From: Porphyra umbilicalis
Taxonomy: Eukaryota; Rhodophyta; Bangiophyceae; Bangiales; Bangiaceae
DNA length: 64,000 nt
Direction: 5' to 3'
Assembly (NCBI GenBank): GCA_002049455.2
Contig: KV919002.1
Location: 1 to 64,000 of the forward strand
Shown: piece after piece, positions 6,773 to 50,416 of the stretch
How positions within the stretch are numbered: the stretch's first letter is position 1
How the letters are laid out: each line of letters begins with the position of its first letter
Made by a program: the position numbers and the translations under genes
The notes under the pieces: generated by a model
Told to the model about the DNA's origin: nothing
Seen by the model: the letters and a program-made list of their open reading frames with translations, nothing else
Database searches by the model: none

Positions 6773-8181
6773 GGTGGGTGTGGGGGGAGGAGGGGCAACA
6801 CGTGGACGGGACAACGGGGAATGGGCACGCAATAGGGGGGGGAGGGGGAGCAAAGGAAGACTTTGCAACGGGGGTGGGCACGCGATGGGGGGGGGGGGCA
6901 AAGGCAGAGCAAAGGAGAACACACACGACGAGGGAGAGGACGCGGTGGAAAAGGACTCAAGGCCGTGCAAGGGGACACGTGCGGATCGACGGTGGAGCAG
7001 CGTGAGTGCGCGGCGTGGCGCCCCCAGACCAAAAGCGGGGTGCATCCAACGTCCCTTTTTCAAACCTTGCACATTGCATTTCAATTCCAAAGGACCGCGG
7101 AGCAGTTATATACATTTGCCAGCAGTGTACCCCTGGCCTTGACACCTCGGAAGCGTTTGAGATCTCGGATCACGAGAGAAGCAATGGGCCAACGGTTGAC
7201 AGTGGACAAAAAGAGGCGCTTGACGCCGTGGGTGGCGGGCCGACCCGCGTCGCAACGCTCGTGCGCGCGTGCGCGCCGTGCGGCCGTCCCCCGGTGGCCC
7301 GCCGCCCGTGGCCGTTCCCACACGCCCCACTGTCCCGCCCACGCGCCACGACGGGGCGGCCGACGCCGCGGGTGCCACGCCGCCACGCATCGCTGGCCCC
7401 CGCCGGCACCCGCGTTTCCCCATTGGGATGCCCGCCGCGGACAGGCGGGCGGGTGGCGGGGCGGCGGGGCCGCGGCAGGGGGGGGCCCAGCGGGGACCGC
7501 CCTCCCGCCGCCGCCCTCCCGCCGCCGCCCTCCCGCCGCCGCCTGACAGCCGGTCACCCACGGTGGGCGGGGGCGCGCCCTGGTTCCCGCCCCCGCCCGC
7601 AAGCGGCGGGCCGTGGGCGGGCGCCGCCCCCGCCACCGCGCCGCGGCCCGCGCGCGCGCCGTGGCGGGGGGCCGTCCGCGTCGGCCAAACGGGGGGAGCC
7701 CGCCCGCGCCCGCCGCCGCCCGCTCGGCGCGCGGCGGTGTCGCGCGTCGGCCGCGCGGCGCCCGCGGCGGCCGACCGGCGGGCGCGCGCGCGCGCGCCCG
7801 CGTCGGCCGCCCGTTGCGCGGCGCCGGCGCGGCAGTGGCGCCCCGGGGGGGCGCCGCCGCCGCCGCCGCCGCCTGCCCCGCGCACGCCGCCTGTGCGGTC
7901 GGCAGCCGCGCGCTGGCGGGTGGGTGCGCCCGCGGGGCGGGTGCGCCCGCCCCCGCCTTATGAAGCCCCCGCCTGGGCGCCACACGCGGGCGGGTGTTGC
8001 GGCGACGCGCTCGCTCCCACCGCCCGTCGGCCGTCGTCGGTCGTCGCACGGTGTCCTGTTTTTCTACCCCAGAGCCCCTTCCTCCCCCCCCCTTCACCCT
8101 CCCTCCCCCCCTTCCCCCTCCCTCCTCCCCCTCTTCCCCCCTCCATCTCCCCCGCCCGATTGCCGATATTTCCGCCACACC
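6773..8181. promoter_or_regulatory. Divergent promoter region between EME1-like and Hint-domain gene 2
   Basis: The two flanking genes are transcribed away from each other across 1.4 kb. The first 300 bases carry G runs; from about 7200 to 8150 the DNA is extremely G+C rich. A TATA-like TATATAA on the minus strand (7106-7112) lies 335 bases before the EME1 ATG. Just before the Hint ATG is a C-rich pyrimidine tract (about 8077-8155). Open frames run through this block on both strands but have no family similarity. Confidence 0.35.
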
Positions 8182-10811
8182 ATGCGGCTCGCGACGCGCC
8201 CCGTGCTCGGCGCCGCCGCCGCGGCGGTCGCGGCGGCCGTGGCCGCCGCGTCGCTGCCCGCCGCCGCGGCCGTGCGGCTGACGGCCCCCCCCGTGCCCCT
8301 GCCGACGCCCTGGAACATCTTTACCCCCGACGTGGCGCAGTATGTGCGGCTGCCGCTGCGCGGGGACGACCCGGACGAGGCCCCCCGGGTGGCCGTCAAT
8401 GGCCCCCAAGTCGTGGACGATGGCAGCGGCTCCTTTGTGTCGCCCCTCGGCTGTGGGGGCGGCGGCGTCGGCACCGCCGGCTGCTTCTACCGGTCGATTA
8501 CGGTCGCAACGGTCGGCGCCAACGGGTCGGTGCTCACCAACCAGACGGTCATCACGCACGCGCGCGGGGGCTTTGCGTTTGAGGAGCGAGCCGACTTTTC
8601 GTTTGGGCGCTCCATGGCCGTCATCAATGGCCACCTGACCGTCACGGCGGGGACGGACCCGTCGGACGACCCGGCGCCGGCGCTGCTGACGCTGCGGCTA
8701 AAGGCGGACGACACCGTGGCGTCGTCGTCACGCCTCGACTTGCGGCCGGTCTTGTGTCCCGCCGCCGACGACGATGGCGACGGCGGCAGTCCGTCGTGCG
8801 CGTCCACCCGCATGACCGACTTTTACGTGCGGGCGGTCGGGGACGTGGACGGAGACGGGGTGGAGGACGCCCTCGTCTACATGTTCCGCACCCTCCACGT
8901 GGTGTTCCTCACCGCCAACGGCACCGGCATCAAGGGGTGGAAGAGCACCTTCCTCCCCGAGCTCTTTGGCCTCTTCCACGGCCGCTTTAGCGCGACCAAC
9001 GTGGCGGTCCTCCCCGACATTGACCGCGACGGGGTGTTTGAGGTGGCCGTGCAGGGGGTGGCCACCCCAACGACGGGGGAGGTGGACACGAGCGCGGGGC
9101 CGCCGCAGGTCGTGCCGACGCGCGTGTGGGTGCTCTACCTCGACGACACGGGGGCGGTGGCGTCCCGCTCGGCGGCCCCGTTTGGTTTTAACGCGGGCGG
9201 CTTTACGGGCACCCCGTCGTCCCCGTTTGACGCCGACGATTTCAACGTGGGGGCGTCGGACGTGGCGACGTTTGGCTCCCTCCTCGTCGCGCTGCCGCGC
9301 CTGCGTGACGGGCGCACGCTGATGGCGGTCGCGTCCAACCCGCGCTCGACGGTGTGGGTGGTGAGCGTCGGCGGCGACGGCCGGGCGCGGTCGACCGACG
9401 CCATCCCCGTGGCGGCGCCGACGCTGCCTTCCGCGGAGCGCGTGCGGGGGGTGTTTCCCCTCGGCGCCCTGGCGGCCGACGACGCTTTTCAGCGGCTCCT
9501 CGTGACGACCGACGAGGGGCTCGACTCGCAGCGGTGGCTCCTCAGCCTCAATGTGCTCGCCGCGCCCGACGCGGCGGCGGTGCCACCCGCCGTGACGCCC
9601 ACCCCCTCCCCCACCCCCACCCCCGAGGCGGTCTTCGAGCCCCCCGTGACGATCATTGAGGTGCCCGTCACCGTCCCGGTGTCGCCCGTCACCGTCCCGG
9701 TGTCGCCCGTCACCGTCCCGGTGTCGCCCGTCACCGTCCCGGTGTCGCCCGTCACCGTCCCGGTGTCGCCCGTCACCGTCCCCGTGCCGCCCGTCACCGT
9801 CCCCGTGCCGCCCGTCGACACTGCCGAGCCGCCGGTGGAAACGTCTGAGCCGCCGGTTGACGCCTCGGAGCCGCCGGCTGAGGGCGTCACTGACGGGGAC
9901 GGTGAGGGTGAGGGTGAGGGTGACGGTGACGGTGACGGTGAGGGTGATGATGACAATGACGGCACAGTTGGCGCAACGGACGAGCGGCAGCCCGGGGACC
10001 CCGCCCCCATCGACGAGTCGCCCCCGCCGCTCGATGAGGATGACTCGGTGTGTTTCCCCGCCGACGCGACCGTCGAGTTGGCCGACGGCCGCACCGTGCC
10101 GATGGCCGACGTGGCGCTCGGCGACCACGTGCGCGTGTCGGCGACCGCCTACTCCCCCGTCTTCCTCTTTACCCACCGGGTGCGGGGCGGCCGCCGGCCG
10201 TTTGTGCGCCTGACGACGGCGGCGGGCGCGTCGTTGACCGCCACGGCAGGGCACTATGTGTATGCCAATGGGCGGCTGACGGCGGCGGGGGCGGTGCGGG
10301 TGGGGGACCGGCTGGAGACGGTCGGGGACGCCGCCACGTGCACGGTCGTGACCGCCACGGCGCGGGTGGCGGGGACGGGTCTGTACAACCCACAGGTACG
10401 TGTGTGGACAGGGTTTCGGGCAGTCGGTCGTGGCTTTGCGGTGGCCGCGCGTGTGTCATTTGCTTGTTGCGCTTACTGGGCAGTCTTTGCCAACCAAAGG
10501 AGACATGCCGTGATACTGACAGAAGCGCCTTTGGATGCCGTCCCGTCTACACCGCTGTGCTGCGCTCGGGCCCTTGACGCTGCTCTCATACACCGCCGCA
10601 CCGCTCTCTTGCACAGACACTGCACGGGGATATCGTGGTCAATGGCATCCGTGCCAGCACCTACACCATGGCGATCGAGCCGGCGGTGGCGTCGACGCTG
10701 CTGGCGCCCCTCCGTGCGCTCTTCCGCTTGGCGGGCCTCACCACGACGGCGCTCGACGGGGGTGCCGACCGCTTGGCCGCCCTCTTGCCAAGCGGCGCAG
10801 CTGCGTACTAG
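8182..10811 (+). CDS. Secreted FG-GAP repeat and Hedgehog-type Hint-domain protein 2
   Basis: Two exons, 8182-10395 and 10617-10811, give 802 residues. The intron has GTACGT at 10396 and CACAG before 10617, phase 0. The ATG was chosen because it opens a typical signal peptide (MRLATRPVLGAAAAAVAAAV). The N-terminal part looks like an integrin-type beta-propeller with calcium-binding loops: VGDVDGDGVEDALV near residue 220 and PDIDRDGVFEVAV near 278. A linker of seven PVTVPV-type repeats (about 495-545) and a Gly/Asp/Glu-rich stretch follow. The Hint domain starts at Cys624 (VCFPADATVELADG), contains the T-x-x-H motif with His691 (TATAGHYVY), and ends with YNPQ joined across the intron to TLHGDIVVNGIRASTYT. 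The last motif has Ser where Hedgehog has its second Cys. Predicted action is self-cleavage before Cys624, releasing the propeller part in the secretory pathway or at the surface. The family call is firm; the released ligand role is inference. Confidence 0.85.
9664..9816 (+). repeat. 21-bp tandem repeat coding PVTVPVS/P
   Basis: About seven copies of a 21-base unit (cccgtcaccgtcccggtgtc plus g) encode the Pro/Val linker between propeller and Hint domain of the gene above. The first five copies are almost identical, the last two carry ccgcc variants, so copy number probably varies between strains. A second simple repeat coding alternating Gly with Glu or Asp follows at about 9898-9950. Confidence 0.9.
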
Positions 10812-12300
10812 GGAGTCGGCGCACCGTCTTGACTGTTGTGGTTATTACTCTTCACTCCGTGGTGTGTGTTTATTTTCTCTTCTCGCGAGACGCCCTGCCC
10901 CGCTGGTACTTTGCGGGAACGGGCGAGACTGTTCTGCCTCCCTTTTCTCCCCGTGGTTCGGACCGAGACGCGGCGAGCCCCCGCGTGGAGAAACAGCCTC
11001 TGGTGCTTTGGTGCGGCCACGGTGGTCGCAGCCACCGTTCGGCGATCGCTCAGCGCGCCTCGTTCCATCCAGTGCGTCCCATCCTCTCTGCCAGCGTCAG
11101 CGTCGACCCCCCACCGTCAAATTCGACTCATTTCAATCTATTGAATGAAATCCACAGTATGTGACGGCGGGGGATCTCCTCCGCTGGGTCCCGTCGGCGC
11201 TCCGCTCGGCGCGTGGCTGCTCGAGAGCGCCCCGTCGGCCGAGCGCGTCGGTGGAAGCTCCTGACTGAAGACCCACAAACCTACCCCATGGGTGGTCATT
11301 TCGGGCTCGTTGCCTGGCCCCACCGTCCACCCATTACGGATCGGCGCTGGCGCCTGCTGGCGGCGACCCCTGCGCGGGACGGCACACTGCCCCGCGGGTG
11401 CAGCCTGTGGCTGTCCGGCGCTGGGCGTCGAGCGCGGCACGCGCCGCGGTGTGGGTGTGTACTGTTCTGTACAGACCTCCCCCCCCTCATCCGCCGCTCA
11501 ATTTTCAGCGTCAACGCGCCGCATTCCGCCGCGCGCCGCCGCAGCGGTCGGCGCGCGCGTGAGACCACTGCTGCGTGGCGCCCCGAGGGGGGGGGGGGGG
11601 CGGACTGGCGCAATGCGAGCGGCGCGCCCCGCGTCACTGTGACGGCGGCGGGGGGGAGGGGAGCGCGCCGCTCGCCCCGAGGACGGGGGCGCCGCGGCCG
11701 CGCCGCGCCGCGCCGGCGCAGCTGGACCGACCTGCCCGCTGCCGTCGTGGGGGTGGGGTGCTTGTACGCGGCGCCCCCCTTGTTCCTGGTGTGGGGTTTT
11801 TGGTCGGGGCAGGGGTGGGGCCGCCGGCGGCGCCGTCTATGGAGGCGCGCCCGCCGCATCGCACGCGCGCGGTGGCGGGTGTGTGACGGCGCTCGGTGGG
11901 TGCCCGCTGCCGCAAGGGGGGCGGCCGAGGCGGCGAGGGTAACCGCCCCTTTTTCCCCGCACGACACGCCCGTGTGGGCCGCGCGTGGTGGTGGGGAGTG
12001 GGGGTGCGTGGAGCGGAGCTGCCCCCCCGTCCTTTACCTCGCTCGCCCTCTGCCTCGTGCCTGTAGCAGACGCTGCCGCACCACCGTGTGTGGGTGCCTA
12101 CGGCGGTCGTTGGCCACCGCCGCACAACCTCAACCCCCCCCCTCCCCCCCTCCTCGCTGCTCGCACCCCCCGCCAACCAGATACTCCCCTCTGCGTTGTC
12201 GCCGACGGCAGCGACGGCCGCTTTCCCTCCCCTGCCGCCGCCGCTGCGGCTGTCGGCGTGGCCGCCCGCGGCGCCTCCTGCCGGCGGCGCCGGTGTGGGG
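10812..12300. other. Intergenic region upstream of the P4-ATPase
   Basis: No recognised gene. The first 350 bases after the Hint gene are less GC-rich. The block GTACTGTTCTGTACAG near 11459-11474 is a variant of the motif seen in other gene flanks. The rest is GC-rich and contains open frames on both strands with arginine- and proline-rich translations that look like noise. Confidence 0.4.
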
Positions 12301-30936: not shown

Positions 30937-32759
30937 CAGGTGCACGAGTAAAAAGCAAAAGACTCAACACCGCAGCTTCCAGATGCAGCGAGACACAAGC
31001 GCGACATGACTGTGTCTTGTGCAGTGATCGTGTATGGAAGACGGCGGCGCATCAACAAGAACACTGGACGAGAACACCACCAAGCGCGTACCAGTCAGTG
31101 CACTCACAGCCACGAGCGCTTGTCATTGTTGCGTACCGAACGACACGAACAGGAGACGCCAACCGGCCAGTCAGCCACCGGCACCGGTGTCAACGACGGG
31201 GTGGCTGGCGAAGGCCCGCCACTGCAGGCGTCCAGTGGAAAAGCCGTGGATCACAGGTGATCCGATAAGTAGCACCCTCCCGTTCTTCCTCGGCATCTCG
31301 CGTTCCAGACTCGCTCAGTACCTTGGTGATTTGTGATAATTGCCTTTCTGGGCTTGATTTGGGCCGCACACAGTTGCGCTTCTCGACTGCCGAGCCCATC
31401 TTCCCCCCCCACCCTCACGCCCGGTGCCCGCACCTGTCTGCGGTGTGCATTCTCCGCCACCCCTCACCTGCCGACCGCCGCGGCGCCCCCCAAAATCAAA
31501 CATGCCCTCCCGCTCTTCCCCCCACGCCAAGATGGAGCAACCTGGGCCCCGCCTCCCCGCTGCCGGTCGGCGGCACCCGACCACGTGCGTTAGGCCCCCA
31601 CCCCCCGGCAGGGGGCTTGGCGGCGGGCGCGCCAAGGGCGGCTGCGTTTGACGGCGACAGAATCGAAACGCAGCCGGGACGAGGCGCCGACACCCCCTCC
31701 TCTGGCCCACCTGGCGCGGCTGCGCCGCACCAGCAGGCTCGCAGGCGCGGTGGCACCCCCGTGATCTTGTCCGTGGCGGCCGCTCCGCGCAGGCGGTGGC
31801 AGCAGCTGCTGGTAGACCTGGCGCGCGGCCCCAGACCGGGGGCTCGCCGGCGTTTTGTGTTGAGCGGCGCTCGGTGGGGAGGGGGGGGGTGGACGGGGTG
31901 GTCCTCCTTGCTGGCTCACCATTGCGCATGTGGTTTATTCTTTTCTCTTTGCCCTTCGTGAGCGTGTCTGGCGGCCTAGGGCGCGTGTATGCCTGCGTCG
32001 AGCGGGGGGCTCCGCGGCGGGGTGCTTGGAGCCGGCGGCCGACGGACCGCTCGTGCCACCCCGCTCACGCGGCCGCGCTGCGTGCGGGGCCGACCGGGTG
32101 GGTTGGCAAACGCAGGCGCGTCGGTCGCGGGACCGCCGGGCGTAGGGTCGGGTCTGGACGCGTCCCCCTCCAGACCGTCGGTTGTCGCCCAATTCACGCC
32201 CGCCGCCCGCCCGAACGCAAGCCGGCCCCCCCGGATGAGCGGCGAGGCGGGTGTGGGGGTCGGCGGGCGCCGCAAGGGGCGCCCTCCCTCCTCTCCTCCC
32301 CCCACCCCCCCACCCCCGCTCCCCCGCGACGGACGTAGGGCCGTCAGCCTCTGGCAGCCGGGCGGCAGCGGTCGCGGAAGGGTCGCCGCCACCCTCGAAT
32401 GGGTAAAGATGGGCCGCGACGCTCTCGTAGGCCTGCGGGACCCCCCTACCCTATGGCAGACGGTTGTTTCGCGCTCGCGTTGGCGGCCGCGGCATGGACG
32501 CCGACCGCTCGATACACGCCACGGCTGGTGGTGGGGGTGGCAACACGAGCGGGAGTGGGCGGCGGCTAGGGGACGGACGCGCTGGCCGCCGCGCCACGCA
32601 CGCGGGCGTCAACTCGACGCGGGTTGGTGGGGTGCCTCTGGCTCCGCGCCTCGACGTAAGCGTCGTGTCTGCACGACCGCCGACGCCGCCGACCACGTCG
32701 GTTGCGGCGGTGACGGCGCCCCGTCCCCCGGTCAACGGACGGCGCCGGTGGGGGTGGGA
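30937..32759. promoter_or_regulatory. Divergent intergenic region before the TIG/REJ gene
   Basis: It separates the minus-strand multi-pass protein gene from the plus-strand TIG/REJ gene, so both promoters should lie here. The first 450 bases are relatively AT-rich. An open frame runs in from 31989 and is continuous with the REJ gene, but its translation is arginine- and proline-rich and precedes the signal peptide, so I treat it as non-coding. Confidence 0.4.
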
Positions 32760-32819
32760 ATGACAGAGGGTGGTGGCGACAACGGCGACGGCGGCTGCGG
32801 CCGCCCCGGTGGGCCTGGG

Positions 32820-35800
32820 ATGGGGGTCCGCCGGCGGGCGGCGCGGCGCAGCCTCTTTGCTGCCGTCGCGGCGGCGGCTGTGTTGGGGTTGGTCCGCGCC
32901 GCGGCGGGCGCGACGGCGGCTGGGCCCGGCGTGGCCGCAACGGGGGCGTTTGGGTGCGGCCACCCGGCGGTGAGAGTGACCGCAGAGGCGGCGGGGGGCG
33001 GCGCCGCCGCCCTGCCGTCGGTCGGCCGCCAAGCCGCAGAGGGCGGCGCCGCAGCCGCGGCGGCGTCGGCGGCGGGGACACCGACGCCGACAGCGACGCC
33101 GTCGCCCGCCGACATTGTTCGTGCGGTGGTGGCGGGCTGCACACTCACCTCGTCCGCGCCTGATACGGTTGTCTTGTTGCAAGTCAACGGGTCGGTGGAG
33201 CACCTCTTGTCGGCGACGCTGACGCTGCCCCACCCGGGGCTGCCGCTGACGGACATTGCGTTTGGGGTCACGTCGACCAACGGGGCGGTGTTGCAAGCGC
33301 CGACTGCCGACGGCGACGCGGCGGCCGTGGCGGCGGCGTCGGCGGCGATGCTCTCCCGGCGGGTCAGCGCCGTGTTCCCCAATGGCAACGCGCGGGTCGT
33401 CAACGTGACGCTCGCGGCGGATTTTGACGCCATGGTCGGGACGACCAACGTGTCCCTGGTTGCGACGACACTCGAGCCGGCAGACGACGCTACTGGCGGG
33501 GGACGGGTGAAACCCCCGACTGAGGGCCGGGGCGAAGGTGATGGCGGGACGGTGTTGACGCTCGGCACAGCGACCTGCTCTTACATCATTGCGGGCATTA
33601 GCGTGTACCAGACGGCGTCTGACGGGTCACCCACGCTCGTGTCGGGCGACGGCCACGGCCTGTCCATCCCCTACACGGCGTTGCTGCCGACGGGCGCAAC
33701 GGGCGCAGCGTCGGACGCGACGGCGGCGCCCAACAAGTTCAGCCTCTCCGTGTTTGTCCAGTTTGCCAATGGAACGTCGTCGGCCATCCCCGCGTCGGTG
33801 GCATCGGGGCCCACGGCAGGCGCCGAGTCGGTAGCCGCCTTTATGGGCGGCGTCGACGCGTCGCTCGTGTCATGGAGCGGGCAGCTTGCACACAACGCGG
33901 CGTCGTGCTCGATGACGTCGGCTGCGAGCGCCGACGCGGCGGCGCCCGGGGGCTTTCGCCTGGCCGACGGGTGCGGCTTTGGGTTTTACCACACCGCAAC
34001 CGGCGGGGTGCAGCTCGGCCTCGGCGTAGAACCGTACCGGGCGGGCCCGCTGGTCATTGGCTTGGCGTGGTCGGCACTGACCGCCACCGATGTGGACCTC
34101 ATGGACGAGGTGTGGACGTCGATCGTGACCATTGACATTACGGGGCGGCCGCCGCCAGTGATCATGGGCGTCGCGCCGTGGACGGACGAGTTGGGGGCGG
34201 CGGGCGCGCTGGCCGCCGGCGACTTTGCGTCTGCGCCGACCATGCTGCGGCCGTCGGGCGGGGAGCAGCTCGTGTACCAAGCGTTCAATTGCGAGGGGTC
34301 GGTCGAGCGCGCCGTGGCGGTGACGCTCGGTGGGGACGGGGCGCAGTCGGCCGTCGGCGGTAACCTGTCGTCTGGTGGCGGCAGTGGCAGCGGGGGCAAC
34401 GACGGCGGTGGCCGCCGCGTCACCTTCCTCGAAGTGCCGGGCTCGTACCTGTCGACCGGCGCGCCGGCCTTCATGCAGTACTTCACCGTCACGACCGTGC
34501 CCGGCAACGGCACGGGCCTGCCATGGCAGCTGCTCGTCACCCGCCCGTCGGTGGGTGCTGACGGCGGCTCGGGGCCGCTCGAGACCGTGACGGCGGTGAT
34601 GTCTCCGGGGCTCGACGCGCCCCTGAGCTACGACACCCGCCTGGTGGCCATTGACAACATGTCGCCGACCGGCGGCACCGACACGGGGGGCGCCACCATC
34701 ACCCTATCTGGCTACTTTCCGGGCCTGCAGCTCGGCCGCGGGGACGGTGTCTTCTTCAACGCCGTCCGCGTGCCGGATCGCTACATCGTGTCTGTGACGG
34801 CCAGCGTCATCACCTTTACGCTGCCGCCGCTGTCAACGTTTGGGCGCAACACGGACTACACGGTGACTGTCCACGTGGCCGCCGAGGTGTCCAATGGCCT
34901 CGCGTTTGGCTTTTGGTCGGGTTCGACGGTCGCGCAGATGGAGGTGACGGGCACGTCCACGCGCGGCGACGCGTACGAGCTCGGCCGGTGCAACACGGCG
35001 CGCTTTACGGTCATGCTCCAGCCGCTGTCGGCGGCGACCACCACCTTCAAGTGGACGGTGCGGGCGCGGGTGGCGGGCGGGACGGACCTGCTGACGACGC
35101 TCCCGGCCGACCGGGCCACCCGTGATACACTCGTCCTCACGTCGGACGAGGTGCCCCTCGGTGACTACACTGTGTCTGTGACGGTCACGCTGCCGACGTT
35201 TACGGTCAGCTCCTCGTCGCACCTCCGCCGCACGGACGCGCTGTCCGTGGGGGTGTACCTTCACACGCCCCCCGTGCGGGCCGTGACGGTGCCAGACGCG
35301 CCACTGCGGGTGGCGGCGCTCATCGACACGCCCGGCTGCTTCACGCCGCCGGTGTCGGGCAATGACAGCCTGATCCTCAAGTGGTCGTTTATGGGGCGCA
35401 CGACGCAGTGGAGCTACCGCGAGACCGAGGCCCGCGCGCAAGCGTCCTCGTCTGAAGAAACGCCTGCCCGCCTCGGTTGGGAGTATGTGGTGCCGCAGCC
35501 CGACTTGGAGTACGGGCGCCACCCGGTGGCGTTGCACGTTTCGTACGCGGGCGCGTCTGAGGTGCATGGCACGGCCTCGACGGTCGTTGAGGTGGCGCCG
35601 TCGCCGCTCGTCGCACGCATCCGCAACGGCGAGACGGTTGTCAACGTCAACACGAAATCGGCTCTGACGATGGTCGGCAACCGGTCGGTGGACCCAGATG
35701 TGGTGGCCCCTGCCAACGGCAATGCCGGCCTGACCTACGCCTGGTCATGCGTGACCGCTGAGGCGGCCACCGATGACCCGTTTCAGCCGTCGACGGTAGA

Positions 35801-38579
35801 AGGTGGCTCGCGGTCGTCGCCCGCCCGCGACGCGTGCCCGCTGGCCTTGCTCCCAGCGACCGACGCGTCGTCGGCGTGGACGGTGCCGCCGTCGGCGTTT
35901 GCGGGTCTGCCGGGCAAGGTGTCCCACGTCTACTACCGCCTGGTCGTCCGCAAATCGGCGGCCAACGCGGCGGACGCGGTGCTCGGCACCCGCACGTCGG
36001 CGCCGACGACGCTGACGGTGCGGGTGGCGCGGGACGAGGCGATGCCGGCGCTGACAAACTTCCTCTTGGACGTGCGGGACAAGCGCGGCGTCGCCATCGA
36101 TCCGGCGGCGGTCAAGTACTTCGACGACGTGGTGCTGCACGTGGCTACGGACACGCCCGGCACGACGTGGTCCTACTCGCTCGTCTCCCCGCTGACGGAC
36201 GTGGCGACCTTCCTGGCTCCCTCGCGCCTGCTGGTCGAGCACGGTTACTACCGGCCCGACGCGCTCGGGACGCTTGGCAACCGGCTGCCGCTAGGCATCC
36301 GCGCTGGGTCGCTCGCCCCGTCGACCGCGTACGAGGTGCGGGTCGACTTGGAGGCGGCCGGGTACGCGGCCAAGTCCGCGTCGCTGACCCTGCAGACGCT
36401 CGAGCGGCCGAGCGTGGTCTTCCCCACGCCCGCGATCATGGAGGGCGACACCGGCACCGAGTTTTCGGCTTGGGCGGGCCCGTCGTTCAACGACTCGTCG
36501 TTTGTCATCTACTTCAAGTTGACCAATGAGGCGGGCGAGACAACGTGCGTTGGCGGCTGCACCGGCTACCCACTGGTGCGCTTCCGTGTTGGCCTGCCGG
36601 GCACCTACAAGCTGACGGCCGTGCTGTACGACGCGCAGGGTGCGGCGGAGCTCGACGTTAAGACGCTCGATACGCCCCTGGTCGTTACCGAGGCGCCAGA
36701 TGTACAAGACCGGCTGCGGGCGGACCTGCTGCGGTCCTTCCGCCGGGGTGACGACGCGTCCTGGACGGGGCTGGCCAAGGACGTGGCGTTTATGCTGTCG
36801 ACCGAGTTTGATCAGCCACACGCATTGACCGCCGTCCGCCGAATGGCTGTTGCACACGCAGCGGCTGAGGTGGCTGCCCTCCCGTCGGGTGACCTTGCGG
36901 TGATTGGCACCCGCCAGCAGTTGGAGGCCAACTCGACGGCGCTTGTGGCCGCGGACGACACGGTGCCGACCGTCGAGGGCGACGGCTCTACAACCACGCC
37001 CGCCGCCGCCGCTACCGCCGCGGCTGGGTCGGATGCGGACCTCAAGACGTTTGTCAGCGACACGGTGTACGAGATCATCCACGGGGGCAACCGGCTGTTT
37101 TGCAACTCAGTGCCCAATACCCTCCACTCGGAGGTGTGCATGGCGCTCGTCAACACCCTGGCCATGCAGCAGTGCCTGTCGGCCGAGGCGGTGTACAGCC
37201 TCGGCGCGACCGTCCGGTGTTGCGCGGAGAACGTGCCGCTGCGGACGGCGGGCAAGATGGACGGGCTGTTGGCGACGGCGTTTGACAACCTCGCGCGGCT
37301 TGCGGCCAACGCCGACTGCGCGGAAGGCAGTGGCCGGCGGCGCCTGCGCTCCGAGGCGGGGGCGCCGAGCCAGATCGTGCCGGACATTTACGAGTTTATC
37401 GTGGCGCAAACCACGTCGATTGTCGGCGTCGACAAGGCGGCGGGCTTTGCAACGCGCATCCGCATCGAGCCCGAGGCGCCCGCACGCCGTTCGGCGCCGA
37501 CAATGCTCGTCGCCGGCATCGTGTCAGGCGACGCGGCGGTGCGGGTCAATTCGACGGACCAGGGCGTGCCCACTGACGGGGCGCTGACGACTTTTCGGCA
37601 GCAGGAGGCGGCGACGCCGGCGGCGGCGGAGCTCCACCACGGCGTCCTGTCGCTGGCGGTGGCGTCCAACCCAGAGCAGCTGCCATCACTGGGCGTGTAC
37701 GGGCGCGACTCGGGGACAAGCCGCACGCGGGAGGAGGCCAACGCAGAGGCGGCTGACGGGGGCGGCCCGCCCGATGCGGGGGAGCTGGTCGAACTCAAGG
37801 GCCTCCGCGGAGACGGGGAGAACAACTACTTCTTCATGCGCCCTGTGTGCTTGGAGCGAGTCTTTGGGACGACCGGCACCAAGCGCCTGCTCTTTGCCTA
37901 CTACCAGTCGCCCGACTTCGTGGTTCAGTCGGGCATCCAGGAGGCGCCCCACTACGCCGAGACGACGCCGGGGCTCTTCACGACCCGCATCTACGAGGAG
38001 GATACTTCGACTGAGACGACCGGAAAACTGCGGCCGCTTGCGGTGGCCGACGACGGGCCGCACTGCTTCTGCTGGCGGCTACCGTTGGCCAACGTGTCGG
38101 CCTTTGACGGCACTGACGACGAGCTGCGGCCGGGCGTGTACACTTTCACGGAGCTCAAGGAGTACGGGGTGGACGTGGCCAAGGGGGAAGCCTTCCACTA
38201 CTGGGAGGACACGGTGCTGCTCGTCGGCTCCTCTATCTCGGAGCGGTGGGTCGAGGCGTGCATGGACCGGCCCGGCCTGATCGGCGCCGCGCCAACGACG
38301 CGCATCATCGGGCCGCTCGGCTTTGGCACGACCGTCCTGGCGGGCTTCCAGTCGCTGACGGTCGCGGGCATCATTGTCGGCGTCATTGTCGCGGTCGTTG
38401 TCGCGCTCGTTGCGTCGTGGATGGTCGCGACCCGCACGGCGACGGGCGGGGCGTTGCCGCCGCGGGGGATTGGTGCCGGCGAGGTGTTCGTCGAGCGCGA
38501 CGTGTGGGGGCGCGGCACGGGCTTAGCGGCAGCGGGCGGGGACGTCACCCCGGCCGTCTCCCCGGTCGCCGCCCAGTGA
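32820..38579 (+). CDS. Cell-surface protein with TIG and REJ domains and one membrane span
   Basis: A single exon of 1919 residues from the ATG at 32820, chosen because it starts a signal peptide (MGVRRRAARRSLFAAVAAAA); an in-frame ATG at 32760 would add 20 residues. After an Ala-rich segment and several unrecognised beta-rich stretches comes an IPT/TIG domain near residues 612-690 (MSPTGGTDTGGATITLSGYF). A REJ (receptor for egg jelly) module spans about 930-1290, with TYAWSCVTAEAATDD, SHVYYRLVVRKS and GTYKLTAVLYDAQGAAELDV. A cysteine-containing region follows (FCNSVPNTLHSEVCMALVNT, VRCCAENVPL). A single transmembrane helix lies at about 1841-1870 (LTVAGIIVGVIVAVVVALVA), then a roughly 50-residue cytoplasmic tail. 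REJ domains occur in sea urchin sperm receptors and polycystin-1. I see no polycystin channel and no GPS site. Likely role is adhesion or signalling at the cell surface, possibly between gametes, which is inference. Confidence 0.8.
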   Translation: MGVRRRAARRSLFAAVAAAAVLGLVRAAAGATAAGPGVAATGAFGCGHPAVRVTAEAAGGGAAALPSVGRQAAEGGAAAAAASAAGTPTPTATPSPADIVRAVVAGCTLTSSAPDTVVLLQVNGSVEHLLSATLTLPHPGLPLTDIAFGVTSTNGAVLQAPTADGDAAAVAAASAAMLSRRVSAVFPNGNARVVNVTLAADFDAMVGTTNVSLVATTLEPADDATGGGRVKPPTEGRGEGDGGTVLTLGTATCSYIIAGISVYQTASDGSPTLVSGDGHGLSIPYTALLPTGATGAASDATAAPNKFSLSVFVQFANGTSSAIPASVASGPTAGAESVAAFMGGVDASLVSWSGQLAHNAASCSMTSAASADAAAPGGFRLADGCGFGFYHTATGGVQLGLGVEPYRAGPLVIGLAWSALTATDVDLMDEVWTSIVTIDITGRPPPVIMGVAPWTDELGAAGALAAGDFASAPTMLRPSGGEQLVYQAFNCEGSVERAVAVTLGGDGAQSAVGGNLSSGGGSGSGGNDGGGRRVTFLEVPGSYLSTGAPAFMQYFTVTTVPGNGTGLPWQLLVTRPSVGADGGSGPLETVTAVMSPGLDAPLSYDTRLVAIDNMSPTGGTDTGGATITLSGYFPGLQLGRGDGVFFNAVRVPDRYIVSVTASVITFTLPPLSTFGRNTDYTVTVHVAAEVSNGLAFGFWSGSTVAQMEVTGTSTRGDAYELGRCNTARFTVMLQPLSAATTTFKWTVRARVAGGTDLLTTLPADRATRDTLVLTSDEVPLGDYTVSVTVTLPTFTVSSSSHLRRTDALSVGVYLHTPPVRAVTVPDAPLRVAALIDTPGCFTPPVSGNDSLILKWSFMGRTTQWSYRETEARAQASSSEETPARLGWEYVVPQPDLEYGRHPVALHVSYAGASEVHGTASTVVEVAPSPLVARIRNGETVVNVNTKSALTMVGNRSVDPDVVAPANGNAGLTYAWSCVTAEAATDDPFQPSTVEGGSRSSPARDACPLALLPATDASSAWTVPPSAFAGLPGKVSHVYYRLVVRKSAANAADAVLGTRTSAPTTLTVRVARDEAMPALTNFLLDVRDKRGVAIDPAAVKYFDDVVLHVATDTPGTTWSYSLVSPLTDVATFLAPSRLLVEHGYYRPDALGTLGNRLPLGIRAGSLAPSTAYEVRVDLEAAGYAAKSASLTLQTLERPSVVFPTPAIMEGDTGTEFSAWAGPSFNDSSFVIYFKLTNEAGETTCVGGCTGYPLVRFRVGLPGTYKLTAVLYDAQGAAELDVKTLDTPLVVTEAPDVQDRLRADLLRSFRRGDDASWTGLAKDVAFMLSTEFDQPHALTAVRRMAVAHAAAEVAALPSGDLAVIGTRQQLEANSTALVAADDTVPTVEGDGSTTTPAAAATAAAGSDADLKTFVSDTVYEIIHGGNRLFCNSVPNTLHSEVCMALVNTLAMQQCLSAEAVYSLGATVRCCAENVPLRTAGKMDGLLATAFDNLARLAANADCAEGSGRRRLRSEAGAPSQIVPDIYEFIVAQTTSIVGVDKAAGFATRIRIEPEAPARRSAPTMLVAGIVSGDAAVRVNSTDQGVPTDGALTTFRQQEAATPAAAELHHGVLSLAVASNPEQLPSLGVYGRDSGTSRTREEANAEAADGGGPPDAGELVELKGLRGDGENNYFFMRPVCLERVFGTTGTKRLLFAYYQSPDFVVQSGIQEAPHYAETTPGLFTTRIYEEDTSTETTGKLRPLAVADDGPHCFCWRLPLANVSAFDGTDDELRPGVYTFTELKEYGVDVAKGEAFHYWEDTVLLVGSSISERWVEACMDRPGLIGAAPTTRIIGPLGFGTTVLAGFQSLTVAGIIVGVIVAVVVALVASWMVATRTATGGALPPRGIGAGEVFVERDVWGRGTGLAAAGGDVTPAVSPVAAQ

Positions 38580-47866: not shown

Positions 47867-48301
47867 GGCCGGCGCGAGTGCGTACGGGGCGCCGCGGCGC
47901 GACGTGTGGGGAGGTCAGTGGGGTTACGAGCGGCTTGGGGCGCCTGCATGACCTGCGTGCGTCCCTGTTGCCGTTTTGTGTTTCTTCTTTCTGGGACGGC
48001 AGCGGGGTGAGGCCACGTGTGCTCTGGGTGGAGCCCTGTTGCCGCACGCTCGGTCGCTCTCGAAGCTGAGCGTGTTGGGGGTGTGAGACAGCGCGCATCT
48101 GACGTGGCGCTCGTGCGCGCTCGCCATGGCTTGTGTCGATGGGGTGAGGTGTCTTTGGGACGGCGGTACCAGCCGCTTGCTTCGTCGGCAACGCGGGTGG
48201 GGGCAATGCCGAACCTCCAGGGCGTACGAAAAAGTTGCGCCCCGTGTTACGGTTCTTGAGGCCTTGGCTCGACTCCGCGTCCGGAACAAAAGCAGTCGAA
48301 G
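47867..48301. other. Intergenic region between Tic22 and tRNA-Ser
   Basis: No coding sequence recognised. Its last bases hold the oligo-A stretch 48288-48291, which on the minus strand is the TTTT termination signal of the tRNA gene. Confidence 0.5.
48288..48291 (-). terminator. RNA polymerase III terminator of tRNA-Ser
   Basis: AAAA on the plus strand reads TTTT on the minus strand, 10 bases after the tRNA discriminator base, the usual minimal pol III stop signal. Confidence 0.7.
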
Positions 48302-48427
48302 CGTGTCTGGCAGGATTGTTGTCGCGGTATGCGGATTTCGAACCTGCGCTCGGAAACCGAAATCGATTTCTAGTCGATCGCCTTCAGTGGTGGGACATGA
48401 TGTCCAGAACCACTCGGCCACAGACAC
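48302..48427 (-). tRNA. tRNA-Ser(AGA) with two ectopic introns (D-loop and T-loop)
   Basis: Read on the minus strand from 48427, an 82-base tRNA can be assembled after removing two segments. The acceptor arms GTGTCTG (48421-48427) and CAGACAC (48303-48309) pair over all seven bases and are followed by discriminator G, as in serine tRNAs. The A box is TGGCCGAGTGG. The anticodon arm ATCGA-CTAGAAA-TCGAT pairs perfectly with anticodon AGA. A long variable arm TCGG-TTT-CCGA is present, and the T stem GCAGG/CCTGC pairs fully. The 23-base insert at 48385-48407 splits the D-loop (GGTT before, AAGG after). It can form a hairpin GGACA/TGTCC flanked by AGTGG/CCACT, a bulge-helix-bulge-like layout that tRNA splicing endonuclease could cut. 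The 21-base insert at 48317-48337 splits the T-loop (TTCGA before, ATCC after). TTTT follows 10 bases downstream. Boundaries may shift by a base or two. Confidence 0.9.
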
Positions 48428-50416
48428 TGGTACGTTCTAATGGAGCGTCTTGTTACAATGATGTTATACCCTGTAACTCAGGGCTGCGGCGTGTCTCGAC
48501 GTCGACCACGTCATACGATGAAAGAGTCACCTGGAGCCGTTGACCTCACGCTTTCTCGGTTCCACTTGTACGAACTGGACCTTTGCTCGTGTTGGTGGTT
48601 CGCGTACCAAAGCCACGCGCCCCCGAAGTGGATGGTGTGCTGACGGGACACTGTTTGGGAATACTTTGTGCAGTGGAAAGACGACTCCCGGCCACCATAC
48701 AGGTGTGACCTCGAGATACAGCCTTCGACCAGATCACCCGCGGCCGATATCGGCGCGGCACACTCAACGTGTGGTCCTGGCGCGGCCCATTCTGCCGCAT
48801 CCCGGGTGCGGTGATATCCGCATCCGGTGCGTACAACCATGCAATGTTGGACCAACGGCAGGTCCCAAAACGAGCCTGGACCTGGTTCAAGTTGGGTGGA
48901 GATGCTGATACGCTGGTAGCCAAACGTGCAAGGTCTGGACGCTACCTTCGTGGACAGCGTGTGACTTTGCATCACCAGCGTTGCGTGCTGGCCGATGCAG
49001 CCTATCAGATGCTGATCTACGCGCTCTCCGCGTGCTCAGGGCAGCTCGAAGCGGAAAAATAGGGGACCGTAAACGATGCTGGCTACCACGTCACAATTTT
49101 TTTTCCCGGCTCTCCCTCGTGCGGGGAAAGTGCGCAAGGTGGGGCACTATTGATCGTGCTGGCCACTGTCCGCGTTCGACCTGCCCATAGATCGCACGGG
49201 GCGTGCCACAGACAAGAATATACCACCTGCACCCGGTCACTCCTGTATTGAAGTGACGGAGTGGCAATGGACCATCGCGTCCTGGTCACTGACCGGTGCG
49301 TTGCCAACGGACAGCGACAGAAAACGCTGGCGCTGTCGAGGTCGCGCTCTCCAGCACGGAGATCGAGTGGAGACCTCGAACGCCAACGAGTCGTGAAGCA
49401 GATAGCCTCATTACGAGGCTATCTGCCCATGATGGGTCTGCCGCGAGGATGGTCGTGTTGTCACCGCTGGCTACAGCTGGTGCGCCGTGTCCGGTTGTGT
49501 CGGCTAATCACGCTGCGTGTGCGATTTGACTGGACTACAGTGGTGACACGTACTATACGCGACAGTCAGCCATCAGTTCGTGGAAAAAGCGATCCCTGCA
49601 TTCTGTGGTTGTCTGTAGGGTATGACAATGCCAGAGAGTGGTGCCACTTTTAATCATAGAATCTGATAGATTGTGACCAAGAAAGGGTGACCGGGCCTCT
49701 TGAACGCCGCTTGAGGCGACCCGCCGTGCTGGAGGAATGGACACAGAGGTGTTTGGGCCAGCAGCGTGCTCGACTGCTGTGTCGCGGTCGAGGCCCATGA
49801 CCATGCTGGCGACGGGCAATACTTAGCCAGTCGAGCGCCGCCATGACCGCCAAACCAGACCCCATACGCATGCACCATCCGCTTTCTCGATGTCTCTACC
49901 CTCCCCCTGTCACGCGTCGCGTTCCACGCCGTGCCACCACCTGACATCCCCCGCCTCTGCCTGCAACCGCAGGCCGCTTGCTGCCGTCACAAGAGCCACG
50001 ACATAAGACGACGACGTCAGCGACGTTAAGACAGGTGCCCCATCTGTCCCAACAGAGTTTTCTGTCGCTCCTGACCCCCCAGCCCTTGAACGGCACCTGC
50101 TGGTCCCTTTGGCGCGCGTCATTCGCGTGACCGCTGAATGAATCCATCTGGAACACTCTAGTGTTGCGCTCCCCGCTCCACACGACCGGGCTGTGTGTCA
50201 CCACGGCCGTAGCCGTGTGTTGAGCGGCAGGGGTTCTCCCCGGCCGCCGGCCCCGGGTGAGTCAAGACGGGGGTCCTGGGACCTCGGTCAGTCTCCGATC
50301 GTCGCCCACTTCTTGCCGTCGGCATCCCCGCCCTCCGGCCGGCCCCAGTGCTACCGCGCGTCGTTCGTAACCCAGACTGAAGGTGCCGGTGCCGGCCGTC
50401 GGGTCGGCTTTTCAGC
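48428..50416. other. Gene-free region between tRNA-Ser and the MAPK-like gene
   Basis: About 2 kb at roughly even base composition, unlike the GC-rich left part. Short open frames match nothing I know. One perfect 12-bp hairpin lies at 49398-49426. No further tRNA signature found on either strand. The kinase promoter should lie near 50200-50416. Confidence 0.45.
49398..49426. repeat. Perfect 12-bp hairpin
   Basis: GCAGATAGCCTC and GAGGCTATCTGC are exact complements around the 5-base loop ATTAC. No poly-U follows, so it is not an obvious terminator. It could be a transposon remnant or a small structured RNA. Confidence 0.6.

Follow-up and report, generated by a model that had tools for sequence, protein, structure and literature searches.

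Within the 64,000-nucleotide stretch of Porphyra umbilicalis DNA analysed here (the window), 126 bases on the minus strand take the form of a serine tRNA once two short inserts, one in the D-loop and one in the T-loop, are left out. This raises the question of whether the locus is a gene spliced at two unusual places, the remains of a gene, a chance resemblance or a template for an RNA that keeps its inserts. Judged from sequence comparison, it is very probably a nuclear tRNA-Ser(AGA) gene that is functional, and pol III would make from it a transcript with two protein-spliced introns, one in the D-loop at about 20/21 and one in the T-loop at 59/60. The basis of this reading is the anatomy of the gene, the conservation of its paralogues, the occurrence of filled and empty sites, a set-wide bulge-helix-bulge (BHB) geometry and the presence of the enzyme genes.

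The GC content of the window ranges from 53 to 81% by 4-kb step. Nuclear GC in Bangiales is given as 64-68% versus 37-57% in other red algae (PMC7423979), and another Neoporphyra assembly as 70.06% (PMC8752119). These values and a plastid of red-algal type (see below) point to a Bangiales alga, probably Porphyra. Elsewhere in the window, at 7006-11148 (+) and 31980-38579 (+), there are long open frames in which a Hint module (E 8.8e-13) and a REJ domain (E 5.7e-20) were recognised.

Anatomy of the gene and its junctions

The gene runs from 48427 to 48302 on the minus strand, with a D-loop insert of 23 bases and a T-loop insert of 21. Both inserts lie outside position 37/38. Its parts, and the evidence for each, are as follows.

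48302..48427, minus strand: tRNA-Ser(AGA) gene with two ectopic introns (sequence; covariance model R1; ARAGORN on the spliced form)
48408..48427, minus strand: exon 1, with the acceptor 5′ strand, the D-stem 5′ strand and the D-loop up to GGTT (20/20 identical in the copies on contigs C290 and C260)
48385..48407, minus strand: D-loop intron, 23 nt, at about 20/21 (±1 base) (match to the spliced form interrupted at 3/3 loci; BHB-like fold)
48337..48384, minus strand: exon 2, with the D-stem 3′ strand, anticodon arm, variable arm, T-stem 5′ strand and T-loop to A59 (identical in C290; 2 differences in C260)
48316..48336, minus strand: T-loop intron, 21 nt, at 59/60, with a weak central helix of 2/4 pairs (T-insert alignment; folds; fixed-geometry test)
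48302..48315, minus strand: exon 3, with T60, the T-stem 3′ strand, the acceptor 3′ strand and the discriminator G (sequence; paralogue comparison)
48369..48371, minus strand: anticodon AGA (ARAGORN, spliced form)
48410..48420, minus strand: presumed A box TGGCCGAGTGG, kept whole despite the D intron (sequence)
48338..48344, minus strand: presumed B box core GGTTCGA, kept whole despite the T intron (sequence)
48409..48414, minus strand: AGTGGT, exon strand of the D intron's central BHB helix (folds)
48386..48391, minus strand: intron strand ACCACT of the same helix (folds)
48288..48291, minus strand: TTTT, a pol III terminator-like run 10 bases 3′ of the gene (sequence)

The D-loop insert keeps both the coordinates and the length that the original prediction had given it. 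For the T-loop insert the predicted length of 21 nt stands, but the position shifts by one base: 48336-48316, at 59/60, is likelier than 48337-48317. The possible cut has an A on both sides, so that either placement leads to an identical product of 82 bases; comparison of tRNA-Thr(CGT) copies with and without an insert places the junction after A59, and all T inserts align there.

Detection by tRNA-finding programs

ARAGORN reported tRNA-Ser(aga) for the 82-base form lacking both inserts and for no other form: the unspliced sequence and the form without the D insert alone returned nothing, and removal of the T insert alone produced a false Gly(ccc). Without the inserts the tRNA is thus complete and its anticodon plausible, in agreement with the claim that a serine tRNA emerges once both are taken out. 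Standard finders had been expected to miss the gene, and both tools tried did so. Over the 64-kb window ARAGORN found 0 tRNAs, also when introns of up to 200 were allowed, and Rfam gave 0 matches at gathering score; at a permissive threshold, positions 48202-48527 yielded a chance mir-203 match of 14.3 bits alone, and no tRNA. Default tools can thus overlook such genes. A survey of tRNAs and codons in eight red algae including P. umbilicalis used default tRNAscan-SE (PMC10496412). The description of tRNAscan-SE 2.0 has archaeal-mode candidates analysed for non-canonical introns and describes eukaryotic tRNA genes as carrying at most one intron (PMC8450103).

The probability that the locus merely pairs like a tRNA by chance, or results from an assembly error, is negligible. 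R1, a covariance model that tolerates inserts, scores the window gene at 61.0 bits against 12.9 bits for the runner-up in the 64-kb window, although the former score is circular, R1 having been built partly from this gene. A D-loop-gap pattern for class II tRNAs gave 19 rows (overlapping alternatives counted) in the assembly against 0 for the reversed-pattern control, and this explanation is already contradicted by the recurrence of the same exons, with the same split, on two further contigs.

Paralogues of the gene

The assembly (83.8 Mb, 665 contigs), queried with the unspliced gene and with the spliced form, contains the same three Ser(AGA) loci by either query, namely the window gene and the copies on C290 and C260, all of them split at both the D and the T sites. 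An intact tRNA-Ser(AGA) elsewhere had been named as evidence that would speak against the original prediction; the spliced-form query found no continuous copy in the assembly, in a search that skips common words and with an assembly that is perhaps incomplete. The exons of the window gene are identical to those of C290 at 82/82 positions and to those of C260 at 80/82, without the loss of constraint that marks tRNA pseudogenes. The T inserts of the three copies align no better than shuffled sequences, and among the D inserts those of C290 and C260 are alike (0/1000 shuffles as alike), that of the window copy being not clearly so (p 0.09-0.10). In the flanks, of which 1.4 kb were compared, likeness ends within about 15 bases of the gene, with one exception, a 37-base match between C260 and the window.

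The same exons with the same split at two further loci independently support the window gene, and conserved exons with drifting inserts are, at the sequence level, an intron-like and not a pseudogene-like pattern. We therefore hold it to be very unlikely that the locus is a decaying tRNA pseudogene whose random inserts stay in place for good, the true Ser(AGA) gene lying elsewhere. Short insertions in the D- or T-arm of eukaryotic tRNA genes are described as mostly affecting a single gene among many synonymous ones, which is then supposed to be a pseudogene (PMC4090602), and the poor BHB of the window T intron (see below) would fit such a reading. Three dispersed copies with nearly identical exons and the same two insertion sites, the lack of any intact Ser(AGA) copy found in the assembly, and the repetition of the pattern in other tRNA species, together with set-wide BHB geometry and terminator-like runs, argue against a pseudogene and for a spliced gene.

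Introns in other nuclear tRNA genes

RF00005, run over the assembly, scored 63 of 1261 candidates and yielded 56 listed places, of which the plastid contig C665 holds 25. This contig codes for Ycf4, CbbX, DnaK, acetolactate synthase, histidyl-tRNA synthetase and heme oxygenase, a red-algal plastid gene set. The D-loop-gap pattern for class I tRNAs added 13 rows (overlapping alternatives counted), against 0 for its reversed-pattern control. The chosen loci were aligned to an insert-allowing model (E cut 1e-6; two matches of 12.9 and 11.8 bits fell outside), and the resulting 56 rows were collapsed to 52 distinct genes by counting an identical gene plus flank once, which also merged one genuine second locus, L027. 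The 25 plastid rows were omitted, as were 8 of the 31 other RF00005 rows, which were repeat-like, organelle-like or broken off (L039, L040, L042, L043, L044, L047, L048 and L049); L046, L050-L052 and L087 duplicate loci already used.

D-loop and/or T-loop introns occur in 38 of these 52 nuclear tRNA genes, a proportion that is not a frequency, the collection being biased by the D-intron patterns and the omitted rows. No intron is present in 13 genes and an anticodon-loop intron only in 1; a D intron alone is found in 22 (including the truncated L076) and a T intron alone in 6. Multiple introns take the form of D plus anticodon (5 genes), D plus T (4) and D plus anticodon plus T (1, the Ser(TGA) gene L075). 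At least 19 of the 21 stem pairs are formed in 51/52 genes. The exception is L076, a copy of Leu(AAG) whose 5′ end is altered and which forms 16/21 stem pairs; it is probably a truncated pseudogene. According to the anticodons read from the loops, the intron-bearing species are Ser(AGA, CGA, TGA), Leu(AAG, CAA, TAG), Val(CAC, TAC), Asn(GTT), Thr(CGT), Lys(CTT), Phe(GAA), Tyr(GTA), Arg(TCG) and Cys(GCA). With the same build in other tRNA genes, D and T insertion at about 20/21 and 59/60, and a serine call restored by removal, the suggestion that the inserts are introns of the ectopic kind seen in red algae is supported.

Several of the omitted loci have features of their own. Five (L039, L042, L044, L047 and L048) are tRNA-like sequences in several copies with similar letters on both sides of the tRNA part, and look like a dispersed tRNA-derived, SINE-like repeat. 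L040 (C115:69279-69367) is a tRNA-Ser that lies on a nuclear contig but is AT-rich and organelle-like, and it is possibly an insert of organelle DNA. A Lys(CTT)-like copy (L049, C425:49745-49809) stops within the T arm; an intact Lys copy is found some 2 kb away.

Filled and empty sites within tRNA families

Some paralogous families have both filled and empty copies. Thr(CGT) has four loci, 57-58/58 identical up to A59, of which one is uninterrupted and three carry differing T inserts exactly after A59. The Lys(CTT) family comprises uninterrupted copies (L012, L015 and L023), a copy interrupted by a D insert (L093) and three that have an anticodon insert as well as a D insert (L090, L098 and L099). 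Asn(GTT) is represented by two loci, one split in the D-loop only and the other in the T-loop only, and no intact Asn(GTT) was found in the assembly. On the sequence evidence at least one Asn(GTT) type must be spliced if asparagine codons are to be read, and both must be if both genes are in use, unless the assembly or the search misses an intact gene.

These families also bear on the idea that the inserts are retained, giving a mature tRNA with enlarged D- and T-loops or a tRNA-derived RNA with another role. This we regard as very unlikely: the inserts vary in length and sequence between copies whose exons are nearly identical, Thr(CGT) and Lys(CTT) occur both with and without them, and a T-loop of 28 bases is not expected to form the tRNA elbow.

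Filled and empty paralogues provide natural before-and-after pairs for how tRNA introns come and go. Because Thr(CGT) has one empty and three filled sites, Lys(CTT) has empty, D and D plus anticodon copies, and Asn(GTT) has D-only and T-only genes, we tentatively suggest that gain and loss of introns at 20/21 and 59/60 are still going on within gene families, that both sites are possibly hot spots, and, as part of the same tentative reading, that the splicing machinery itself might insert or erase introns next to the internal promoter boxes. An origin of the intronless Lys and Thr genes from spliced copies by retroposition is not supported, as no CCA stands directly 3′ in their flanks.

Two Leu(AAG) copies have about 1.25 kb in common at 86.7% identity, and their introns differ at 3/17 bases. 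A duplicated cassette (L067, L069 and L071) carries Leu(AAG) and, about 330 bases off on the opposite strand, Val(CAC), both with D introns. A TTTT run within 40 nt is missing in 2/3 intronless Lys(CTT) copies (L012 and L015) and present in 4/4 intron-bearing ones, and the split copies may be the active ones.

The bulge-helix-bulge splicing signal

In a BHB, cleavage occurs after the second bulge base. The strict motif is a 4-bp helix flanked by two 3-nt bulges (PMC3978253). For T introns the helix so predicted pairs bases 54-57 with the intron, and the 3′ bulge consists of two intron bases and T60. At this offset the 11 T introns form a mean of 3.27 of 4 pairs, with 5/11 helices complete, against means of 1.45-1.91 and no complete helix at six other offsets; the pair sum was matched by 0 of 20,000 shuffles. 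The geometry is that of the literature, but the folds were already known when it was applied, and the sets include related introns (e.g. the three Thr ones). The cut that this fold geometry predicts is the junction shown by the empty Thr(CGT) copy. The 25 D introns peak at the same offset as the T introns, with 7/25 complete helices, and a full 4-bp helix within one base of that offset is formed by 12/25, against 4.45 in shuffles (P 0.0004). Constrained fold energies point the same way: the Stouffer z is −3.68 over 24 D introns, of which 19 are negative, and −2.59 over 11 T introns, of which 9 are negative. A looser helix test of exon tail against intron tail was not significant, the sum being reached by 622/2000 shuffles for D and 453/2000 for T introns; with 25 registers it was too permissive, and it was succeeded by constrained folding and then by the fixed geometry.

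BHB folding of the precursor had been proposed as a check on the window gene, and the two introns answer it differently. The D intron has 4/4 central pairs at offset 2, with AGTGGT/ACCACT, an inner GGACA/TGTCC helix and a z of −4.06. The T intron has 2/4 central pairs and a z of −1.88, and with the C290 copy makes up the lowest two of the 11 T introns, which as a set follow the motif; its own BHB would thus be relaxed or degenerate.

Transcription signals and splicing machinery

From the box consensus, we take 48410..48420 to be the A box of the window gene and 48338..48344 its B box core; neither is cut by an intron. The B box had been thought to be kept across the T intron together with a following CC. 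Its core RGTTCRA is indeed whole in 11/11 T-intron genes, but the CC half at consensus spacing is present in 1/11 (Val(TAC), L041), the window gene having TC, so that its preservation through the T intron is rejected as a general rule. A TTTT run lies within 40 nt 3′ of 47/52 collected tRNA genes, the expectation from flanks being 5.7/42.

A Sen-type endonuclease is encoded in the genome. The endonuclease domain PF01974 has two loci, one with a frame nearest to Sen34 chains of the PDB (L085, E 3.7e-16) and one nearest to Sen2 chains (L086, E 2.5e-10), and the Sen54 N-terminal domain is found at L100. No match to PF09631 (Sen15) was found in the genome at E 10, in a search with all-prokaryotic control genomes. 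An RtcB-like gene with a 700-codon open frame is present; the Trl1-type ligase domain PF09511 had no match in the genome and none in the controls either.

From these elements we infer transcription, cutting, ligation and charging, and a reason for the tolerance of the inserts. Pol III would transcribe the split Ser(AGA) gene, and introns at the D and T sites are perhaps tolerated because the A box and the B box core stay whole. The Sen-type tRNA splicing endonuclease, with its Sen2-, Sen34- and Sen54-like parts, would cut both introns at folds of the BHB or relaxed BHB type. The three exons would then be joined into the 82-base tRNA by an RNA ligase, probably RtcB, and this tRNA would be charged.

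Comparison with known systems

Ectopic and multiple tRNA introns are known from the red alga Cyanidioschyzon merolae (PMC3978253, PMC4090602, PMC4033280, PMC9602550), an extremophile with a 16.5-Mb genome (PMC3978253), which is the eukaryotic entry for multiple tRNA introns in a review table (PMC4033280). There, more than 62% of nuclear tRNA genes are reported to be interrupted, at least 12 of the genes by several introns and three by a D, an anticodon and a T intron (PMC9602550); its permuted genes have junctions at 20/21, 37/38, 50/51 and 59/60 (PMC3978253). According to published descriptions of C. merolae, several features are common to it and P. umbilicalis: both are red algae whose nuclear tRNA genes carry up to three introns, in the D-arm, anticodon and T-arm; the introns at 20/21 and 59/60 found here match junctions of permuted genes there; the folds are BHB or relaxed BHB; and Sen2, Sen34 and Sen54 occur with no recognisable Sen15, for which the controls here were prokaryotic. 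Unlike C. merolae, the present host is a Bangiales macroalga with a GC-rich genome of 83.8 Mb, and its tRNA genes form paralogue families with some copies filled and some empty at one site.

Archaea offer a second comparison, the Thermoproteales and others being described with small BHB introns at various sites, 20/21 and 59/60 among them (PMC4090602), and archaeal tRNA genes with up to three introns each (PMC8450103). As described, the small BHB introns, the several positions and the maximum of three per gene are shared with P. umbilicalis, whereas the genes and enzymes there are archaeal.

The kind of intron is thus already known; what seems new, judged by the accessible literature, is the host and the filled and empty paralogues. 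No report of ectopic tRNA introns in Bangiales was found in that literature.

The third system is the nucleomorph of Guillardia theta, with ectopic tRNA introns of 3-24 nt, several per gene, whose removal has been proven by RT-PCR (PMC4090602, PMC3978253); cryptophyte nucleomorphs are of red-algal origin (PMC4494063). Non-canonical insertion sites and several introns per gene are common to both according to these accounts, but the nucleomorph is a relict genome and many of its introns are described as having no defined BHB, in contrast to the precise BHB register of the T introns as a set here. If the present reading is true of a seaweed that is multicellular and mesophilic and whose genome is much larger, ectopic tRNA introns would not be a by-product of genome reduction or heat; red algae may have the trait from their common ancestor, and its presence in the red-derived Guillardia nucleomorph would agree with this.
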